From assembly GCA_023078555.1 (NCBI GenBank), contig CM041202.1, positions 5,318,522-5,382,521 of the forward strand: a stretch of DNA of 64,000 bases. The letters run 5' to 3'. Origin of the DNA: Ulva prolifera (taxonomy: Eukaryota > Chlorophyta > Ulvophyceae > Ulvales > Ulvaceae). A program made the position numbers and the translations under genes. The first letter of the stretch is position 1, and each line of letters begins with the position of its first letter. A model generated the notes under the pieces. It had not been told where the DNA came from, searched no databases, and saw nothing but the letters and a program-made list of their open reading frames with translations. Positions 34,068 through 46,935 of this stretch are shown one piece after another.

Positions 34068-34075
34068 CTGGTGGC
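34068..34075. repeat. Left 8-bp target-site duplication CTGGTGGC
   Basis: Identical to 46928-46935. It directly abuts the left terminus CTAGGTTGGGT. Confidence 0.88.
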
Positions 34076-34078
34076 CTA

Positions 34079-34165
34079 GGTTGGGTCGAGCCCGATCCCC
34101 CGATGTCGGGATTTTTCAAATCGGGCCCGATAAATCGGGAATTTTCGGCTAGATCCGGATAAAAA
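34079..34165. promoter_or_regulatory. Left subterminal CCCGATAAATCGGG palindrome cluster
   Basis: AATCGGGCCCGATAAATCGG with neighbouring CCCGAT copies repeats the arrangement at the opposite terminus (46850-46915). Such subterminal palindromes are plausible transposase-binding sites; this is inference. Confidence 0.6.
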
Positions 34166-34459
34166 ATTTGAATATGTAGGGATGTCTACAACTGGACGCA
34201 CTTCAGTCGAGCTGCCCAAAGTTTGACATAAAATTGATTCCAATGAAGCGAGAAAACATCATCATAGCGCTTTAATTGTAGTCTTGCATGATTTGTGATG
34301 GATTTATATGAGCAGCATTCACTGATGGCACTGCTATGACTGGCTGCTCGGATGTGTCCAATCATAAGATCGCAACAGCACTCCACAATGCAATCCGGTG
34401 GGTCCAAAGCCACCTGATTAATAATTAATCATTGCATCTTTATATACATATGTGTGTCT

Positions 34460-35542
34460 AATCTAAGAGAGAGCTGACACACTTGTGTGATGATACACAG
34501 AAACCAGGTCCAATTCTGATCACGATTGCGATGGAATTACGAATGTCCAAGATATTAAATGCACTCAGAGACATCAGATACAGTGATTCTTGATCGATTG
34601 CTGCCCTCTCATGGTCGTGCGTAGCCTCATAGACTGCTGACGACACGAATACTTGCCGCAGCCACGGGCCTGAACTAACAAATCTATTGCGAAAGACTTC
34701 TCTGAAACACAATGGACTTTTGCAATGCATTCCTGATGTTTTTGTCCGTTCGCCAGCCGATTGAGCCATGTACTCGTTCGTGCTAGCTCGTTGACGAGAC
34801 CATGAGCAGTACTTGCACGCCATGCCGCAAATCGAGTGTAGCGCTCACACAGTCTTTGACAGGCAAATTGAGCTTTCAAATCTTGCGCAACCGTGCGTCG
34901 CTGAGCACCTGTGGTCGTTTATAGGTCCACGGCGAGCTTAGTGTACATGTGCCTGAGGGTGGTTTTTTTGGGCCGTTCTGGCGAGCCGCGCACAGAGCGA
35001 GCGGCTCCTAGCCGATTCGCGAGCAACTTTGTAGTGTCATGTACGTTCCAAAGGCGCTGCTCGCCAACCTTGAGTGGCTCTGTCATCGATAGGCTCATAA
35101 TTCGAGAGCGGGAAGTAGCTGGCGAGGCCATGTATGGCGCGAGCCAGACGTAGCGGATCAAGTTGTAGTTTACTGACAATTTAAGCTGGATAATTGCTGC
35201 TTCGCTACAGTCGTGCAGCTGTTTGCACACCTCGGCCATGTTGAGGCGGTGCAGTGATGTCCAGCGAAAGGTAAGCGACTTCGTTTCGCGGCTGGCCAAT
35301 GCAACTGTAGTTTCACTTGTCATATCTGCGGTCTGTCGTACAGCGGCCTGTGACATGATCGGCTTTCGCCTGTCCGCCAGTTGATCGTGGTCATTGTGTC
35401 TCTGGCTCACGGAATGTGATGCCTGTTGCGCTTGGCGAATCAAGCAGCAGACATCAAATTTAATTACATGTAACTTGCCAGGCCTGCAAGGCCCATGGCT
35501 GCATGCCTGCGTACCTACAGCTTGCCAAGCCAGCATGGCCAT
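34460..35542 (-). CDS. Unknown ORFs in the left transposon arm
   Basis: A 207-codon minus-strand ORF (34919-35542) begins MAMLAWQAVGTQ, includes LTFRWTSLHRLNMAEVCKQL, and mostly lies in the long internal inverted arm. The right arm carries the same frame but with TAA replacing a Tyr codon (one C-to-A change near 46472), so only the left copy is intact. A further frame, 34574-34879, reads AQFACQRLCERYTRFAAWRA and looks coding-like. No domain is recognised. They may be exons of one accessory gene or a chance frame preserved by arm homogenisation. Confidence 0.35.
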
Positions 35543-35717
35543 GTGGCTCAGCCAGCAGGCAAAGCCAGACGCCTAGCCAGTCCGCATGTGTGCAGCTTGA
35601 ATTCCATTTGATTCCACTGCAGGTCGCTAGCCACCTTTGGAGGACTCGCTGTGGCTGTAACGGCTGTGCTTGGTATGGGCACGACGTGTCGTGCACCACA
35701 GAGGCCTCTTTTCCGCG
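34951..35717. repeat. Left long internal inverted arm of the KDZ transposon
   Basis: The 767-bp arm begins GCCTGAGGGTGGTTTTTTTG and ends at GGCCTCTTTTCCGCG. It is the reverse complement of 45921-46689 with only scattered substitutions and tiny indels. Confidence 0.9.
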
Positions 35718-36212
35718 CCTCTCGGGCCGCTATTGGCCTAGGTTAGCTTATTACATACCGCTGCTGTATACATGCAACCGCAGTGAAGAACTGCGCCTAA
35801 ATTTGTGGACCCATGGAGACCCGTGCTGCGCTGCTGTAATAACTTGGATCTATGTATCGACATCACATTCACACATGCACACCAAACGCCTGTGCGTTTG
35901 GGAGATGATGTTAACATAACGTGGGCATGCAATGGAACACATAATGGGAACATGCAATGGAACGATCAATGGGACATGTTGTAGTCTAGGCAGCCCGGGT
36001 CATTTTCAAATGTAAACCTCGAAAGTGGAATGCATTCATAAGAACAACAATTATGTGCCATACATACACCGGTGGTGTTTGCAGCCTTCGTCTTCTCTGG
36101 AGCCCAATGTGGCTGTCCTAGTTAACATGCATATAAGCAGTCACACATGGTTCTCCCACAGTAAATGTGCGTGTGGAGGCTTCGAGTAGGCGGGGCACAT
36201 CCCTGGCAACTA

Positions 36213-38457
36213 CTATGCCCCTGGGAGCTTCCGCCTGCGTTCTCTGGTGCCTCGCCTCAACTCTTGTGACGGGCCATTGCGTGCAGTCGGGGTGGGTAAG
36301 GGACGTTTCTTCCTTCCGCTTATGGCATCAGTCCTATCATCTTTCATGGCTGCGAGTGCATTTGCAGCAAGTTCAGTATTGGAAGTTAGGTCTGTGCCTG
36401 GATTTCCGGCAAACATGTCATACACGTCGGCCGAACTGTGGGCAGCTGCAGCGGCGAGTGCGAGGGTGGCTCCTGGGGGCAGCACTTCCGGAGGGGATGC
36501 CACCGCTGCTACGGCTACTGGGGGTTGCGCTGTAGGAGGGGCGGCCACAGCTGCCGTGGTCCCTGGGGGCTGTGCTGTAGGAGGGGCGGCCACAGCTGCC
36601 GTGGCCCCTGGGGGCTGCGCTGTAGGAGGGGCGGCCACAGCTGCCGTGGCCCCTGGGGGCTGCGCTGTAGGAGGGGCGGCCACAGCTGCCGTGGCCCCTG
36701 GGGGCTGCGCTGGAGGAGGGGCGGCCACAGCTGCCGCGGCCCCTAGGGGCTGCGCTGTGGGAGAGGCGGCCACAGCTGCCGCGGCCCCTGGGGGCTGCGC
36801 TGTAGGAGGGGCGGCCACAGCTGCCGTGGCCCCTGGGGGCTGCGCTATTGGAGGGGCGGCCACAGCTGCCGCGGCCCCTGGGGGCTGCGCTGTAGGAGGG
36901 GCGGCCACAGCTGCCGCGGCCCCTAGGGGCTGCGCTGTGGGAGAGGCGGCCACAGCTGCCGCGGCCCCTGGGGGCTGCGCTGTAGGAGGGGCGGCCACAG
37001 CTGCCGCGGCCCCTGGGGGCTGCGCTGTAGGAGGGGCGGCCACAGCTGCCGTGGCCCCTGGGGGCTGCGCTGTAGGAGGGGCGGCCACAGCTGCCGTGGC
37101 CCCTGGGGGCTGCGCTGGAGGAGGGGCGGCCACAGCTGCCGTGGCCCCTGGGGGCTGTGCTGTAGGAGGGGCGGCCACAGCTGCCGCGGCCCCTAGGGGT
37201 TGCGCTGTTGGAGGGGCGGCTACAGATGCCGTGGCCCCTGGGGGCTGTGCTGTAGGAGGGGCGGCCACAGCTGCCGCGGCCCCTAGGGGTTGCGCTGTTG
37301 GAGGGGCGGCTACAGATGCCGTGGCTCCTTGGCGACTCTGGACACGTGTAGCGAGGTCGCGAAGCGAACTTCTCTGCTCGTGAATCCAAATCTGTAGAAC
37401 TTTAAGTTTCGCTTCAAATTTACTGACATTGTCTTCCAAGCTGTGGTAGATGTCCTGGTCCATGGTGTGACTGCCATTGGCGAGATGAGACTCGATGATT
37501 TGGAGATTTTCTAGGATAGCACACGACAACCTGTACGCGTAGCAATTGCTGTTGGGACATGTTCGCGGCTTGACCACATGCCGCTGGTGCCAATTGTTGC
37601 ATATACGAGCGGCATTATATATGCACGGGGGACAAGGGCACACACCAATCGACACTCCTTTTTGGCTCCGTAGCAAACAAGTGTGTTATATCTTGGTACG
37701 TGGCTTCACGTTGTTGCATGCGGCTTAAGGATGCAAGCAATTGTTGCACCTTGTCAGATTCAGCAGACGGGGCATCTCCGCTCAAGTCCACGTTTGGCAA
37801 TGTTGTGCCTTGATCGACGCGTGTGATGAAGACCTCGCCTTGTTCTTCAACTCCGCTTAAAGCGTTGGCCCTTGGCGCAGCTGAGGCATCGCCCCATGGG
37901 TCATCATGTATTGAGGCGCCGCCCGAGATTGGACTGGAGAATGTGTTTATATCCGGCAAGCCCTGGAGAGGGTCAAAGGGGGCAAGCCGGGAGGCTGGGG
38001 GCTGGAAGCTGTTCATGAAGTCAAGGGAAGCAAAGTCAAGGGGGCGGGCTGCCAACGGCGGATTTTGTTCGGCATGGAACTCTTCGGTTGAAAGTGCCTT
38101 CTTTGTTGCTCGATTGTGGTCAAGCAACGACTGACGTAACTTAGCTGGGGTATTCAATCCGAATGGAGCGATCAGTGCCACCTCGTCTGAACTGAGTGCG
38201 TCCTGTATTTGTGTCTGCAAGACCTCTTGTCGGAGAAATAGTGAGCGTGGCACGTCAACCTTCTCGTTTATGTAGAGTTCGATCCACTTCAACAAGTGTG
38301 TTAGCTCCAGCATGGCAGTGTATGCTGACTGGGCTGTTGAACCACATGCTTGCGTGACAAGGGCAGCGGCTGGGAATTCCCACCCCCGGAAGATGAGGTC
38401 TACCTTCTCCTGCCCAGTCTTGAGGTAGAACCACCTTAACTCTTGGCCTAGTGGCAT
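36213..38457 (-). CDS. Unknown KDZ-transposon accessory gene with 15-residue Pro/Ala repeats
   Basis: Two overlapping minus-strand frames probably form one gene. Frame A (38457 to about 37650) encodes MPLGQELRWFYLKTGQEKVD and a helical segment LELTHLLKWIELYINEKVDV. Frame B (37676-36213) has a Cys/His patch, CPCPPCIY...CNNWHQRH...CPNSNC, possibly zinc-binding. It then has about 18 copies of the 15-residue unit VAAPPTAQPPGATAA and a basic tail (RRGTRERRRKLPGA). The frames differ by +1, so a short intron or frameshift near 37640-37680 is needed. The gene diverges from the plus-strand Ulp1 and transposase genes. I recognise no domain; an accessory role in transposition is inferred from location. 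Confidence 0.55.
36510..37335. repeat. 45-bp minisatellite inside accessory gene
   Basis: About 18 head-to-tail 45-bp units follow GTGGCCCCTGGGGGCTGCGC, with variants (ACAGATGCC, GGAGAGGCGG, CCCCTAGGGG) distributed among units. The length keeps the 15-codon frame, so the repeat is translated in the minus-strand gene. Confidence 0.93.
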
Positions 38458-38499
38458 TGAGGCGCTTCGGCGCCTTAGGCGCGCGACGCCTCCAGCAAA

Positions 38500-39600
38500 T
38501 TCACCTGCAGGGCCACCTGAAAAGTAGGTTCGTGGACAGGAAGTGCATGTGGCCTAAACTCACTGGCGCTGTGGGCCACACTCCATAGTCAGCCATCATT
38601 TGAGTGCATGGCCACCTCATACAGAATGCATTGGACTCAAACCTGCCTTCGCCGAGAGGACATCGCTCAACCACGGCTCGCCCATGATAAAATCTTGCAG
38701 CCATAGCAACTCGATTGTAGCCGGTCCCTTTCTCTTGGTTGTGTGTGCCTGCACACAATCAGAGAAATAATGCCAGATAGTGAGATGCTCGGTCAGCATG
38801 GGGGATGGGATGAGCACCTGTGGTGGTCCGTCCGGGGCCCCCGGCTTTCGTGCTTCTGTGCACAAGGTAGCGCAGGGCAGTGGCATGCTCTTCACCCAAG
38901 TTAACACCTTCTTGATTGGATCCCGAACGGTGGCCTTGGCACCCCAAGCCCTGAGGGTCGACTCGACACCGTGGAGTCCTAGGTGCTCGGTGGTCAGCTG
39001 CGAAGCCCCCTGAGAGCCGACCACAGCTTCACAGGCCAAGGCTAGAGTGCAGAATTTTGACCAACACACGGTTGCAGTGAATGGGCAGGGGACTGGGCAT
39101 GGCTTGGCTTGCTTTACAATAGCGAATGCCCTGCACATCAAGATACGTCGCCCTAGGCCTGACTGAGTAGGTGTGGCAAACACAGAGGAGATCATGGTAC
39201 GTACATGTCGATTACTTGTGCCACTGTCAAATGGCTGAGTGCCGCATGGGTACATGCGTGGACAAGAGCTTGAAATACCTGCCGCACATCACCGACCTGA
39301 ACGTTCACAGACAAGATTGATGTACAGAGCTTAAACGTGGGTGTTAAGCATTTGATTGAAACCGGTGATCGGTCCGCTTGATGACTCTGCAGACACGGGT
39401 GCCAACCTTGTAAGACTTGGCGTTTGGTTTGGGGATCCCCACATTGCTGATCACACGAACCAGCTGCATTGCAACGTCAAGCTGATGTGGAGTCATGACC
39501 ACCGGAGCTTGATGCCGCTCGGGAGGCATCGAGGACTGGTTGGGGCGTTCGTGCCCGTGTGTCCTGTCAAGTGGTGCCCACATACGTGCGGCCTCAGCTG
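38500..39600 (-). CDS. Unknown minus-strand exons upstream of the accessory gene
   Basis: Minus-strand frames look coding: MTPHQLDVAMQLVRVISNVG (within 39344-39583, followed by a possible AAG|GTTGGC donor), then TTEHLGLHGVESTLRAWGAK and LLWLQDFIMGEPWLSDVL (38617-39255), then MADYGVWPTAPVSLGHMHFL (38501-38600). They sit immediately 5' of the 38457 ORF on the same strand, so may be its 5' exons or a separate gene. No family recognised. Confidence 0.4.
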
Positions 39601-40430
39601 CCTGTGGCGCGGTATGGTGAAATGACCAACCTTTTTCCGGTTTCTGTCTCAGATATCTAGCACGGGTACCTGTAGACCATGGGGGCTGCCAGTGTCAAGA
39701 GCGCAGCACTTGGCACGCGAACTGCAGCTCAGAGGTACCGGCCCGGGCTCGAAGGCAGAGTGAACATGATATACCTTGTCTACAGTCCATTTCGAACCGA
39801 TTCCGGGCGGATGAAGGGGAATTTAAGCTTAGTGCGCCTCCTCGTTGATTGCTGCACGACCACCGAGTGCCGTTCAAGTTGTCAAGATCGGGTGACGGTG
39901 CATAGCGAATACAATGTACACATTAATCTCTGCAACGCATTCATATCGGAGCTGTCGATATCGGGTGACGAGAAAGGCCACGAACGCTACGTGCAAGACT
40001 ATGGAGTCAATTCCGCGGGTCCGAGCAGACGTCGCGCGATCTACTCGTGCTCCCACGCCAGCATATACGTGGTTCAACATGCACACAACGCAAAAGCTGA
40101 TGTGGACAATGGCTGTTACCTTCCATTCAATGGCAGATATGTTCATAGTGCATGTGTGCCTGTACCTCGGGGCACTAGCGCCTCCAGCATTGGCCTGCCT
40201 CACGCCACATCATATGCACGCCCTCCGACTTGAAGTTATGTAGGCTGCTGAAGATCCAGCATAGCGGGCGTCAACGTGCACAAATTGTCACAATGCTATT
40301 GCTGTGGTGCACCGTCTATTGATCGGGACGAGTGTCCAGGACTGTGGACTGCAAACGATCCTCCGAGACGCCACACCACGCTGGACAAGAGTAAGTACAC
40401 CAAGGGGGATTAGGATTTAGACTTATTGAC
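39601..40430. other. Divergent interval between transposon genes
   Basis: ORFs occur on both strands without recognisable motifs. It separates the minus-strand accessory gene from the plus-strand protease gene and probably holds the divergent promoters. Confidence 0.4.
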
Positions 40431-41892
40431 ATGCATAATTACACTCAAGCCTTGGAGGACGCCTGTGCAGCGCAGGATCCGTGCGTGCGGTACGCTGAAC
40501 GAGCCATCGCGCTCATCAAGGTGCACACAGCCATTCCCTCCAACGTGTACTTGCTGCTTGGCGAATGTGCCGAGTATCTGAAGTAGCCTTGGAAACGTGT
40601 ACTTGCTTGCACGTTGCTTGCCTAGGCCTAACGATGCGGGCATGCCTACAGCACGGCGTCAAGCACAACTTCCGCGCGGCCTCGCACATTCGTTGGTACA
40701 CCGTCCGCATCCAACGTCTCCGTTCAAGTCCCGTGGTGGGTCCATTGCCAGTGTCCCTCTTGGAGTACGGGAATGTGGTACAAAAACATTCATGGTGCGT
40801 CTGCGACTCAAGGAATGCCCACATGACCAGGTGTACTGGGGAAGGTGTGAACGCACGTGCCCAACGATCGCAGACATGTGGATGCAGGCAACTCACTACG
40901 GAGCAAGCTTCAGTGATTGAGCTGCTGAAAACCGCATGGTCCATCGATATCGGAGATAAACGCATGGCGACATGTCACCTGCAGAGCACCGGGATGAGAG
41001 AATTGTGCAACGGTGATTGGTTAGAAGACGGCGTCATATCCTGCTACAGTGTGCTCATCAGGGTGCATACTACGTCTTGCTGTTTTGTATTGAGGCACAG
41101 TTGCGACCTCAGCCGCCATGGGGCTGCTGGTACTACTGGTTGTTGTTCCACAACATGTAGGTGTTCCTGCAGAACCGCATGGAGGATTTCATCCCGGCCA
41201 CTGTTGTACTTCTCAACACGCACTTCGGAAGGGGCCTATGGCAAGCCCATGAACCGATCGATCAAGAAGGAACAGTGGACACCGGGGTAAAGATCCTCAA
41301 GACCTACTTTACGCTGCCGAACATGACAAGCCGAGGGGAATCACTGAAGTATCCAGTTTTGGACACATGCTCAAGATTCATCTTCCCTGCATGTCTGAAC
41401 CTCAGCCATTGGGTATGTCCAGCATCACAATGTGGTCACATCAGTTGAATACAATGTGCGTGATGTACACCTTCAGTTGCCCGTGTGCAGGTATTATGCG
41501 TCGTCGACGTAGGAACTGAAGAAATCATGTATATTGATTCTTGCAAGCATACAAACGGTCTTATACGTCATGCTGAATGGGTGAAACAATGGTTTTCTGA
41601 GGAAGTGGAGCGAGAAAGAACGCTGCTGCAACCACACACGGTCACACGGCTACGCAGCATCAAGTGGAAGGTTGATTGCAACCCGGTACACCTGAATGGA
41701 CCTATCCCCAAACAGAAGGATGGGTCTGACTGTGGTGTGTGCACCGCATTCGCCATCAAGGATATACTTGCCAAACGTCCCTTCTCCTATGGACTCACTA
41801 CTGGGTCAGACACCGCGTTTCATTTGCGAAAGCAAATGGCACTCGAGCTTGCTGTTGGATGCCTACTGCCTTTCAATATGTGGTCGCAATGA
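40431..41892 (+). CDS. Ulp1/SENP-type (C48) cysteine protease encoded by the transposon
   Basis: The catalytic core is complete across three exons. It starts LCNGDWLEDGVISCYSVLI (to 41062), continues 41161-41412 with LNTHFGRGLWQ and ending LSHW (His 41407), then 41491-41892 with VGTEEIMYIDSCK (Asp 41535), PKQKDGSDCGV (Gln, Cys 41731) and RKQMALELA before the stop. Introns 41063-41160 (GTGCAT..TGTAG) and 41413-41490 (GTATGT..TGCAG) join in frame. His-Asp-Gln-Cys order and spacing match the Ulp1 fold, which cleaves SUMO or related conjugates. A candidate first exon starts at 40431 (MHNYTQALEDACAAQ). KDZ elements commonly carry such proteases. The 5' end remains uncertain. Confidence 0.82.
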
Positions 41893-42471
41893 TGCCATTG
41901 CCTTCAGCACCTCCGAACATGATAGCTGGTACCCTGGTAGCTGGAACCTGGTAGTTGGGTATCTGATAGCTGGTTGCAGCACAATCACTGCCACAGGCAA
42001 GACAGATGGCAGTTGTAATCTATCAGATGTTGCACTGGAGAGACCTTGCAAGGATGATATCAAAGCAAACATTATTGTTTTTGCCGTGCAATCCGCCAAT
42101 CAGCTATAGTAATAGCTATAGTATACGCTCGGTAGTGCATCGCTACGCCATGTAAAATTCACGCCACTCTCTTGAACGACGCACTGGGGTTGTGTACGTT
42201 CAAGCCCCGTGTCTCTTGCATGTTTCATCACGCTATCAATTTGTAGAACGATTTACTACTCTCATAAAGCAGCGGAGTCTTCATGTACTTGTCATATTCG
42301 GAGCAGTCGATGCTACTGTCGAGCACCTCACGCTCGAGCCTTGAGTCATGTGCAAGTGCTATGTACAACACCAACAATGTCAATATTTGATGGTGTGTTG
42401 ATCATCGACCTTCACCTTAGCGAAGATAGATTCATTCGCACTCGCGCTTCGTTTAAACGGACCGGGTCGAA
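41893..42471. other. Intergenic spacer between protease and transposase
   Basis: AT-richer spacer with short GATAGCTGGT/CTGGTAGCTGG repeats (41918-41975). It likely holds the protease 3' end and the transposase promoter; no defined motif. Confidence 0.45.
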
Positions 42472-45400
42472 ATGGAAGACGAGAAACTCCTTGCAAGCGC
42501 CCTCTTTCAAATTTTAGACCTTCTATACGCACCACTACGAAGAGTCAGAGTGAACTTAAATGTTGTTTCCGCCAGCCATGTTCAAGTAGCAGTGCACGAT
42601 GTCATGGTGGAGGTGCAGAAGAATCAGTCACCCACCTCGCCATTGTCGTCTGTCATTGCGCCCATAATAGAGGCTCTACGAACTATCAATTATAGTGGGG
42701 TATTGAGGGACGCTAGTGCTGGCTTGCCCTGCACGAGTGGCGACCTCAACCTAGCGTGTGCCGCTATTTTCGAGATGAGGCAATCCGAGGTGCAGAAGTG
42801 CCAACATGTGAATCATCCAGAGTTTCGGCTCGGGCTCTTTCCCGTCCTAGAGTGTCTCTCATCCACTTGCCCACATTGTGTCAAACGGGCTGGCACCATG
42901 ACACCCAAGCTCGTCCAGGTAATTACCGAGAGCGGCCGGCCAGACTGGTGTGCTCTTTTAACGACCTGCAGTGCTCTCTGAAGGATACTTTCTGTATGGT
43001 CCATGATGCAACAATCAAAGTATGTTGAGTGGGGCAACATGCAGGTTCGTGTTGATCAAGAGGAGATGCAAACCATGCAGAGTCACCCTATATCCAGGGT
43101 TCTCCAAGTCTGACGAAGTGGTAACACGCACAGAAGCTTCAGACGTAGAATCTCTGCCATATGACGATGCGGAGAACGAGATGGACGATCACTTAGATGC
43201 CAATGAGAGGGGAACACGTACTCTTGCTGCGCCAGGAGGAAAGCACACCACGGTGCACGAGTACTTTGCTGCAGAGATCGAAGCTTTGAACAGTCCCAGC
43301 ACGTGTCCATTCGCGTTTTTGCGTGTCACTGACAATTTGTGGATGCATATCAACTTTGTGGAGACTGAGATACACTTGCCTGTGCGCTCCCTGCATAATG
43401 TCTGCGTGTGGAGTTTTCCCTTGTAGCCTCACCGCCACTATTCCTGATGCACCGCAGATGATGGTAGGTGGTCCCGCCTTTGCCAGGCTTGAAGAAATCT
43501 ACGCTGGGAAATGTGATCTCAAAGGCTGGCTGACGCCGACGACCATTGCATGTGGCAAAGGGAGATCATTTGCAAGAGCATTCAAATTGCATTGCATCAT
43601 CACACTGCTCAATGCTCGAACATGGCCACTCGGACGCAGTGTTCGTGTCGTCAGCCGAGTAGATGCACAAGGGAATCGTCGATGTGGGCTAGAAGCCACA
43701 GCAAAAGAGATTGTGGAACATTATTTACCAGTGGACACCGAACACCGCCAGCACACGTGTGATGTACCTGGTTGTGGAGGCCGTATACACGATGACGCAC
43801 CAGTGAGCAAGTGTCTAGTTATGGATGGTGTTGAGGTGCCCCCCATCGTTGTTGAATTGTGCTACATGTTCTATAACATGCAGCTAAAAAACCCTTCCCT
43901 GCAAAATACGCTTTTAACAATGCCAATGCGTGTGCAGAATTACACTGGTCAGCAGTGCACATTTTTCTCCGAGGGCCAGCATGGATACAACTGCAAGAAG
44001 ATGCCTGCTATTGGGAAGCGATTCTGCCACGAACACAGCAAGCACGAAAAGACTTGTGCAGCATACCGGCCGCTGCCAGACACATGCAAGAGCCTGTCTC
44101 CAACATCAAGTCTAGCGACGATGTCCACTGCATTCCATCGTTTAGGCTCGCATAGCCCTGTGGTGGGAGTTCGATGTGCGAATCCTGCGGAAGAGGGATC
44201 GCTTGCATGTGATGACCCATTGTGTCAGGCGATACTCCTCAAGTTTCGGCAGCGTCCACAGCTGGAAGACGTTCTTCCCGGAGACAACGGCACAAAAGAG
44301 AAACAGGTCCGTGAGTTGTGTTGGCAAAAGATTCATGACAAGCAATTCGTGCCCCGCAATGCCCTCATCGGCTACTTCTTCTATGTTTGCCCATGTGGTG
44401 CGCTTCGACAGACCCAGTGTCGCACATATGGTTCAGGCCCAAATGGTTGGCTGCACATGTACAACATCAACTCTTGCATGTTCTGCTCCGCAGGCGTAAT
44501 AGAAGGTTACTATCCCCAGGAGTGCCCCGAGAACTATACATCCAATTTAGAATTCCTTGACACCAAGTTATTCCCCCTAGAATCCCCCTATGCACTACCG
44601 GATTTCTTGTTTTATGACAGAGCCTGCTTTCTAGCAGCTTGCTTCGGCAAGAGCTTGCAAACATTTTCCGAACGGTGGGCAGGGCTGAAGTGGAGGGTAG
44701 ATCGCTTCCACTTTCTAGGGCACTCTGCCCAGGATCGCCACTGCCGGTTTGTTCCGGCTTCATGTATATTGCACATGCGCGCCCTGAACGTGTACAGAGT
44801 TGGTTGAACCGTGCACCATGTAGGGAGAATTGCAATGCTTTCGAACCGAGGGGAAATCATGGAATTGTGCATGTACTTGACAGCCATGACATGGAGCCAA
44901 ACTCCAAGCGAGACACCGCTTGCGATGGATATCGCAGATCTCGTGCTGGATTCAGAGTACGAAAGGAGACCGTCGGCTCAACCAAGTCGAAGGTCCGCCC
45001 AGTACCCCCCTGCTCTTCTTCCTTGTAAGTCCACCCCTACACAACCACCGTAAAATGTTAGAACTGCAAGCCCCAGTGGTTGCTGCCTATCTTTCAACCA
45101 CTGGTGTGCATGTTCCGCTGGCATCATGCAGAACGAACCAGTGGACGAGGGTTTGTGGGTTTGAGCCATGTGTGCATATGCAAGTTGAGATCCGAGAGTT
45201 CATACGGCCCAAGAAAATACAAAGACTAGGCGAAACAACTCAATGTGGGGCAGCCGCAGCGGTTGGTGGGCCCCTACCGCAAGTCGAGGAACAGGAGGAG
45301 TTGATCCAAGCTGTGATTGGGGTCAACACGGAAATTGCTGAACAGACATTCAAGGAGCTTCGTGCGAGCAGCCCTACCTTGCGGATGATGGGAGTCTGGT

Positions 45401-45546
45401 CTTCAAAGCTGCTCCTCGCATTCCGTGTGCACTGGCTGAATGTACGATCATGCCGGCGGCAAAAGGCTACCGTTGTAGCTAATGGTCCAATAGCTACCAG
45501 ATGGCAGCCGTGCTCTACCCTTGGGCCAACATTGCATTTTGTATAA
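42472..45546 (+). CDS. KDZ-family transposase
   Basis: ATG at 42472 opens MEDEKLLASALFQILDLLY. CPHC and CSLKDTFCMVH flank a 53-nt intron (42919-42971), followed by RRCKPCRVTLYPG, a Cys pattern like KDZ-associated CxC clusters. The main exon (about 43440-44800) has CDVPGCGG, GYNCKKMPAIGKRFCHEH and IGYFFYVCPCGA, then LPDFLFYDRACFL (Asp 44616) and KWRVDRFHFLGHSA (Asp 44700). A last exon carries GVNTEIAEQTFKEL (Glu 45331). YD.AC, VD.FH..GH and NTE..EQ are the hallmark acidic motifs of KDZ transposases (RNase H fold, DDE chemistry). At least three introns are needed; the 43.02 kb and 44.8-45.3 kb junctions are not fixed. All three catalytic acids are present, so activity is possible. Confidence 0.85.
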
Positions 45547-45920
45547 AATTGTCACACCTGTGGAATGCGAAGACTCAAGCAAGGAACCTCAGTGTAAAGT
45601 GTTTGTGCTGTAAATCTAGACACACTGATAAAAAGTGCGTCTAGATTAAATGAGGTGGCATCGACTCATGTGTCACACAAGTCATCCCTCCACCGAAACC
45701 CAATCAGCATGATAGCGTTGAGGATGATCAACTGCTTATATCTGTTACATGCGAGCAGCAAGTTGCATGACTGTAGCGACTTTGCACCTTGGCGTCATGT
45801 GCCAGGTGCCCATACATGAGACAATAGGTACTCTGCACCCCAGTGACTAGCAGCAACCTACGCCATGTGCTATCACATACGCATACAGGCACTCACTCAG
45901 ACCACAGGCGGGCCTGGGGC

Positions 45921-46689
45921 CGCGGAAAAGAGGCCTCTGTGGTGCACGACACGTCGTGCCCATACCAAGCACAGCCGTTACAGCCACAGCGAGTCCTCCA
46001 AAGGTGGCTAGCGACCTGCAGTGGAATCAAATGGAATTCAAGCTGCACACATGCGGACTGGCTAGGCGTCTGGCTTTGCCTGCTGGCTGGGCCAGAGGGC
46101 CATGCTGGCTTGGCAAGCTGTAGGTACGCAGGCATGCAGCCATGGGCCTCGCAGGCCTGGCAAGTTACATGTAATTAAAGTGGATGTCTGCTGCTTGATT
46201 CGCCAAGCGCAACAGGCATCACATTCCGTGAGCCAGAGACACAATGACCACGATCAACTGGCGGACAGGCGAAAGCCGATCATGTCACAGGCCGCTGTAC
46301 GACAGACCGCAGATATTACAAGTGAAACTACAGTTGCATTGGCCAGCCGCGAAACGAAGTCGCTTACCTTTCGCTGGACATCACTGCACCGCCTCAACAT
46401 GGCCGAGGTGTGCAAACAGCTGCACGACTGTAGCGAAGCAGCAATTATCCAGCTTAAATTGTCAGTAAACTAAAACTTGATCCGCTACGTCTGGCTCGCG
46501 CCATACATGGCCTCGCCAGCTACTTCTCGCTCTCGAATTATGAGCCTATCGATGACAGAGCCACTCAAGGTTGGCGAGCAGCTATTTTGGAACGTACATG
46601 ACACTACAAAGTTGCTCGCGAATCGGCCAGCAGCCGCTCGCTCTGTGCGCGGCTCGCCAGAACGGCCCAAAAAAAACCCCCCTCAGGCG
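45921..46689. repeat. Right long internal inverted arm of the KDZ transposon
   Basis: Reverse complement of 34951-35717, beginning CGCGGAAAAGAGGCCTCTGT and ending ACCCCCCTCAGGC. The embedded ORF is interrupted by TAA near 46472. Confidence 0.9.
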
Positions 46690-46844
46690 CTCCTAATGGC
46701 TTAGTCGCACACAAAAACGTCCACAGGTCGAATTTTTTGACAGGAACACTTGCCACAATCCGCAAACATGTTTATCTATCATATGACACCTTAATTAACA
46801 GTTAACAGTCGTCAACAGAGTTCATTCTAGCTCGAAGATGGCCA

Positions 46845-46925
46845 AATCGGGAGATTAATCGGGATTTTTCTCATCTGGCCCGATAAATCGGGAAATTTGC
46901 CCAATCGGGCCCGATCACCCAACCC
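46845..46925. promoter_or_regulatory. Right subterminal CCCGATAAATCGGG palindrome cluster
   Basis: Contains AAATCGGGAGATTAATCGGG, GGCCCGATAAATCGGGAAAT and AATCGGGCCCGATCACCC, mirroring the left end. Confidence 0.6.
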
Positions 46926-46927
46926 AG

Positions 46928-46935
46928 CTGGTGGC
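46928..46935. repeat. Right 8-bp target-site duplication CTGGTGGC
   Basis: Exact match of 34068-34075. Confidence 0.88.

Follow-up and report, generated by a model that had tools for sequence, protein, structure and literature searches.

Several described groups of DNA transposons resemble the elements considered here. Zisupton and Kyakuja have been annotated in Chlamydomonas and its relatives (PMC8226300). Target duplications of 8 bp are reported for Zisupton and for a Dileera; for two Kyakuja families they are given as 7 bp long, and these families are described as having CA..TG termini and lacking terminal inverted repeats (TIRs) (PMC12730594). Ulp1-like regions are present in plant CACTA and Mutator elements (PMC2528002), and the duplications made by Hermes follow the hAT pattern nTnnnnAn (PMC2803484). 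We analysed a stretch of 64,000 nt from the green alga Ulva prolifera (assembly GCA_023078555.1, contig CM041202.1, positions 5,318,522 to 5,382,521 of the forward strand), here called the window and numbered from its first base. An initial annotation, made from the sequence alone, had described positions 34068–46935 as one apparently complete KDZ/Zisupton-type transposon of 12.85 kb. We are nearly certain that this region instead consists of two DNA transposons with the borders given below, one of 11,756 bp nested within one of about 1.09 kb.

The outer element is flanked by CTGGTGGC, which can be read directly on the left (34068–34075) and on the right (46928–46935). Alignment with uninterrupted copies places its left part at 34076–34942 and its right part at 46706–46927, both on the plus strand, which joined together give 1,089 bp. 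Its tips read CTAGGTTGGGT from 34076 and ...ACCCAACCCAG up to 46927, with CCCGAT...ATCGGG palindromes near both ends. The inner transposon, delimited by comparison of copies, occupies 34943–46698 (plus strand) and carries the tips GTACATGTGCCTGAGGG and ...CTCCTAATG; as read in the window it begins GTACATGTGCC... and ends ...CCTAATG. Just behind its tips lie inverted arms of 790 bp that are 96% complementary to each other (34957–35746 on the plus and 45892–46681 on the minus strand), a feature absent from the first reading that marks the inner element. At the junctions, GCTTAGT (34936–34942) is followed by GTACATG..., and ...CCTAATG is followed by GCTTAGTC, so that GCTTAGT recurs at 46699–46705 and the likely 8-bp target GCTTAGTC ends at 46706; empty copies of the outer element hold a single GCTTAGTC. 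No similarity between the outer and the inner element was detected by blastn, and judged by sequence they are different families. The order of events would have been an insertion of the outer element at CTGGTGGC and a later insertion of the inner element into it at GCTTAGTC, presumably by cut-and-paste with duplication of the target. Three base pairs appear to have gone at the left junction, namely the final base of the target and, by comparison with the family tip, the first two bases of the element, which would leave a 7-bp duplication.

The outer element is a family with dozens of copies. At least 40 matches per end, the window included, were found in the genome (89 and 52 candidates), and the exact tip pattern occurs 40 times versus 2 times for a reversed control; these tips are more than a product of chance. 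We took 47 outer loci (L022-L068), comprising the other listed tip places except C2:1740175, C9:1804726, C3:2387604 and C7:1459183, with L039 covered only in part. Thirty of them had two callable ends, and the 17 loci without a callable end are left out of the duplication count. A length of 1,046–1,106 bp is shared by 25 of these 30 copies, and 19 are flanked by perfect 8-bp duplications, with the tips agreeing to within 1 nt. A 121-bp probe over the outer join aligned across the split point in 35 of the 47 copies with 68–100% identity (100% in L023 and L049), the remaining 12 matching it on one side or on neither, and a single GCTTAGTC at the split point was read in L022, L023, L025, L026 and L028. 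No reading frame of at least 150 codons lies wholly within either outer part in the window.

The inner element has a family of its own. Its transposase DNA gave five matches in the genome (the window and the copies C4, C2a, C1b and C3b), and its arm gave 36. The C4 copy ends in GTGTACATG.../...CTCCTAATG and is flanked on both sides by CACCGCCG, an 8-bp duplication. Its flanks are unlike the outer element, and it is absent among the outer-end matches listed. Outside a minisatellite, a hand count over about 10.9 kb gave 10 substitutions and one 2-bp indel between it and the window copy. The family tip is G[A/T]GTACATG, so that the window copy is apparently 2 nt short at its left end. Further 8-bp duplications were read by eye in C2a (CGTAAACA), C1a (CCAGCGTA), C3a (CACTTTAC), C8a (TCTTCCTG, with 12 extra bases at the right tip) and C8b (CAATTTGG). 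Exact 8-bp duplications thus flank six of the ten inner-family copies that we examined at both ends; the other four are the window copy (7 bp), L077 (7/8), L078 (none) and C2b, whose right tip is lost. This count covers copies with both ends and leaves out single-end matches (for L079 and L080 only the flanks were read). C2a is a diverged homologue of 13.3 kb that holds the three inner genes described below in the same order and orientation. Five copies of 7.2 kb match only the end of gene (i); none of them gave a tblastn match to the transposase or the Ulp1 frame at E≤1e-3, and C1a and C8b were also read frame by frame. These 7.2-kb relatives are likely non-autonomous and, lacking a transposase, were likely moved in trans. 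The inner family as a whole is likely to have been mobile recently. Two much shorter loci, L077 (C1:7929990-7931120) and L078 (C2:3530300-3531890), of about 1.0 and 1.5 kb, carry both inner tips and resemble miniature inverted-repeat transposable elements.

A few outer loci have an unusual structure. L051 and L052 (C9:2046000-2048000 and C9:2056800-2058700) are outer copies about 10.7 kb apart with identical sequence around the break; both stop at the very base at which the window copy is interrupted by the inner element (outer base 867) and continue into unrelated GTCCTCG... sequence. In L036 (C7:5037600-5043900) the outer copy is extended to 5.1 kb, likely by another nested insertion, and a retroelement-type integrase frame lies just upstream of or within the extension (locus positions 1389-2762; Integrase_H2C2 E 5e-15, SH3_Tf2-1 E 5e-15, rve below cut-off). 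L029 (C9:3189900-3191800) is a rearranged copy, with the outer left end followed by the right end in inverted orientation. On C5, L060 was considered as another case of an inner-family element inserted at this outer site and rejected: it breaks near the same base, and the adjoining sequence is not an inner tip.

Three genes are predicted in the inner element, with exon joins made by hand. Gene (i), divergent and of no assigned function, is placed on the minus strand at 36216–39694, the approximate span of frames conserved in C2a, and its end part is rich in Pro and Ala. Three of its frames gave no match in Pfam up to E 1 beyond a repeat-driven extensin match below cut-off. It includes the minisatellite mentioned above (36468–37329; 19.2 units of 45 bp), which is the most variable part of the inner element: the window and C4 copies differ there and are near-identical elsewhere. 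Gene (ii), on the plus strand (exons within 41161–41889), is a predicted Ulp1/C48 protease, going by its residues and by a PF02902 match below cut-off (E 0.0014, 19.0 bits, cut-off 20.7). The motifs LSHW (41401–41412), YIDS (41530–41541) and PKQKDGSDCG (41707–41736) supply His at 41407–41409, Asp at 41536–41538, Gln at 41713–41715 and Cys at 41731–41733, and all four residues are present in C2a as well. Among solved structures its best match is yeast Ulp1 (1euv, E 0.059). Gene (iii), likely the transposase, has several exons within 42472–45546 (plus strand) in an approximate hand model and was recognised by the motifs CLVMDGVE (43812–43835, D1), FYDRAC (44610–44627, D2), VDRFHFLGH (44697–44723) and NTEIAEQTF (45325–45351, E). 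D1 and D2 are conserved in all three aligned copies and E in both copies that reach it. The ratio of nonsynonymous to synonymous substitution rates (dN/dS) against C2a is 0.17–0.41 over seven segments of the three genes, with 0.41 and 0.33 for the two segments of gene (i); these values come from one copy pair without a significance test, and part of the core segment is likely intronic. Because of these low ratios, the three genes are likely maintained as proteins. Two points count against this view of the genes, namely that the exons were joined by hand and that the C2a homologue has one in-frame stop in its Ulp1 frame. In the mechanism that we propose, the transposase, a predicted DDE nuclease, would act on the asymmetric tips of about 10 nt and the long arms behind them, and the Ulp1-type protein and the third protein would be accessory factors.

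Could the region nevertheless be one KDZ/Zisupton transposon of 12.85 kb that has CTAGGTTGGGT/CTGGGTTGGGT as its ends and from which the 1.1-kb copies arose by internal deletion? The short copies do have the same tips and 8-bp duplications, and deletion derivatives are common. Moreover, some details fit the nested structure imperfectly: the inner duplication in the window is 7 bp (GCTTAGT) and not 8, the left inner tip is 2 nt short, and 11 of the 30 two-ended outer copies have no perfect duplication (two with 7/8 and nine with 5-6/8, where 5-6/8 is the level expected of a search that takes the best of 169 offsets per locus). However, in C4 the coding part is bounded by the inner tips and lies, with an 8-bp duplication of its own, between unrelated flanks, and the same holds for C2a, C1a, C3a, C8a and C8b; in the window the inner part stands between two copies of GCTTAGT, of which the short copies have one; and the outer and inner parts have no sequence in common. 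The C4 copy, the inner tips and duplications and the alignments across the split point together rule the single element out, and we give it practically no weight. All features named in the initial annotation could be read directly, that is the tips, the subterminal CCCGAT palindromes, the flank CTGGTGGC, the Ulp1 residues and the transposase motifs, and the region does contain a DNA transposon that has its two ends and target duplications, carries a predicted Ulp1-type gene and shows KDZ-like motifs in its transposase. Its borders, size, termini and duplication were assigned to the wrong element: the ends quoted and CTGGTGGC belong to the 1.09-kb family, and the element with the transposase spans 34943–46698. 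The further copies it had anticipated for these termini do exist, at 40 or more matches per end, but they belong to this short family. For the nested pair so defined, the source of the outer element's mobility has to be considered separately. The outer tips are mostly C[A/T][G/A]GGTTGGGTCG, i.e. C[A/T][G/A]GG (CAGGGTTGGG-type). In the outer duplications (19 loci and the window) position 2 is T in 12 of 20 and position 7 is A in 11 of 20 (P 3e-4 and 2e-3 against flank composition; taken together, 23 of the 40 key positions fit, with P about 2e-6). The outer duplications therefore lean to nTnnnnAn, and we hold with good confidence that the outer element was mobilised by a hAT transposase. It is similar to hAT non-autonomous elements in its short tips and in 8-bp duplications with the lean known from Hermes (PMC2803484), and differs from them in that no autonomous partner with outer tips was seen in a limited check. 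The hAT dimerisation domain gave 32 matches in the genome at E≤0.1, 19 of them above cut-off. This origin is weakened by two circumstances: the nTnnnnAn test was run with the hAT pattern already known, and no outer tip pair was found at 8 hAT loci from the 32 matches, searched with about 1.5 kb of flank each, where the lone near-match to an outer tip, with 2 mismatches, was in L071. A KDZ-type transposase, perhaps that of the inner element, might have moved the outer family instead, as 8-bp duplications are made by both families. This seems improbable to us in view of the unrelated tips, the absence of common sequence, the hAT domains that the genome does hold, and the nTnnnnAn lean, which is set against T at position 2 in none of seven inner target sites (a small sample). 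The genome does contain long open hAT frames: at L070 (C4:6825936 region), a 485-aa open transposase frame has DUF659 and the hAT dimerisation domain.

The inner transposase raises the question of kinship with KDZ. The order D / D / FH..H / E of its four motifs is one that we take to recall KDZ transposases. The best Pfam match of the inner transposase, of P0002 (which reads like C2a) and of P0003 (at 43% identity) is in each case CxC6, a cysteine cluster that takes its name from KDZ transposases, always below cut-off (best score 14.8 bits, cut-off 27.5). By search, its E values were 0.28; then 0.32, 0.52 and, for a relative, 0.036; and finally 0.046 in the first of two matching members among the three of the transposase set A1, that is 0.28–0.52 and 0.046 for the inner family. 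The fragments P0004, P0005 and P0006 show no CxC6 match, and P0005 has a sub-threshold DENND3-like match. Three protein searches returned 1, 3 and 6 proteins, with the window's own counted in each; the six of the last, a profile search, are all that fell at E≤1 among 2,487 candidates scored. The sole named relative, P0005, comes from Ulva mutabilis and has 37% identity across 37% of the query. A1 had no sequence match in the PDB at E≤1. Kinship with KDZ faces several adverse results. PF18758 gave no match in the genome at E≤1, and 14 control genomes were equally silent; nor did it match the hand-spliced transposase model, in a search where HMMER filters discard most matches above E 0.1. An AlphaFold model built from three sequences failed (mean predicted local distance difference test score, pLDDT, 30.7). 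Taken by the profile check that the initial annotation itself had named, its KDZ assignment fails, and what stands of the KDZ/Zisupton type is the set of KDZ-like motifs, accompanied by CxC6 below cut-off. The silence of PF18758, a CxC6 match that stays below cut-off and is missing from three fragments, and a last search with only five proteins besides the window's own also suit a version in which the nesting is right and the transposase belongs to a DDE lineage of its own, similar to KDZ but distinct from it. We regard this as a serious though less favoured possibility, since CxC6 is the top Pfam match for all three of the proteins named above and the motif order presumably recalls KDZ. The inner 8-bp duplications also agree with those reported for Zisupton and a Dileera (PMC12730594). 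On balance we lean towards KDZ kinship of the inner transposase. Because of the missing PF18758 match, the inner element is named KDZ-like and is not filed as a KDZ member.

Compared with the described systems, the inner element shows a mixture of traits. The KDZ-like motif order is presumably a likeness to the Kyakuja of fungi. The two Kyakuja families reported with 7-bp duplications and no TIRs (PMC12730594) differ from the 8 bp and long arms seen here. With Zisupton, found in fish as well as in Chlamydomonas and relatives, it has in common 8-bp duplications and TIRs (PMC12730594), occurrence in green algae (PMC8226300) and a candidate counterpart, CxC6 below cut-off, to the cysteine cluster that goes with the Zisupton transposase (PMC12062965). 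In contrast to Zisupton, it has no KDZ profile match, its arms of about 790 bp stand behind asymmetric tips of about 10 nt, and besides the transposase gene it carries a Ulp1-type gene and a third gene that is read divergently. An Ulp1-type gene inside a DNA transposon is also a trait of plant CACTA and Mutator-like elements, the transposase of which is different (PMC2528002). The remark in the initial annotation that KDZ elements are rarely described from green algae is partly outdated, given the Zisupton and Kyakuja annotations in Chlamydomonas and its relatives (PMC8226300). A narrow search of one open library found no literature pairing 'zisupton' with 'ulp1' or 'ulva' with 'zisupton'. We tentatively suggest, as an idea with somewhat less than even chances, that the inner element founds an undescribed KDZ-like lineage of green seaweeds and their relatives, characterised by a mobility module of three genes (for the transposase, a SUMO-type protease and the third protein), asymmetric tips with inverted arms of about 800 bp, recent mobility and non-autonomous followers of its own.

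The nesting itself is ordinary, because nested transposons are common. The useful result is a correctly bounded, likely recently mobile KDZ-like family. The corrected borders keep a false 12.85-kb hybrid with wrong tips and a wrong duplication out of repeat libraries, and what they delimit is a family comprising two long copies that are nearly identical to each other, a long homologue that has diverged, and non-autonomous followers. With the right borders, the inner tips, a possible role of the Ulp1-type protein in transposition and the kinship with KDZ become testable.

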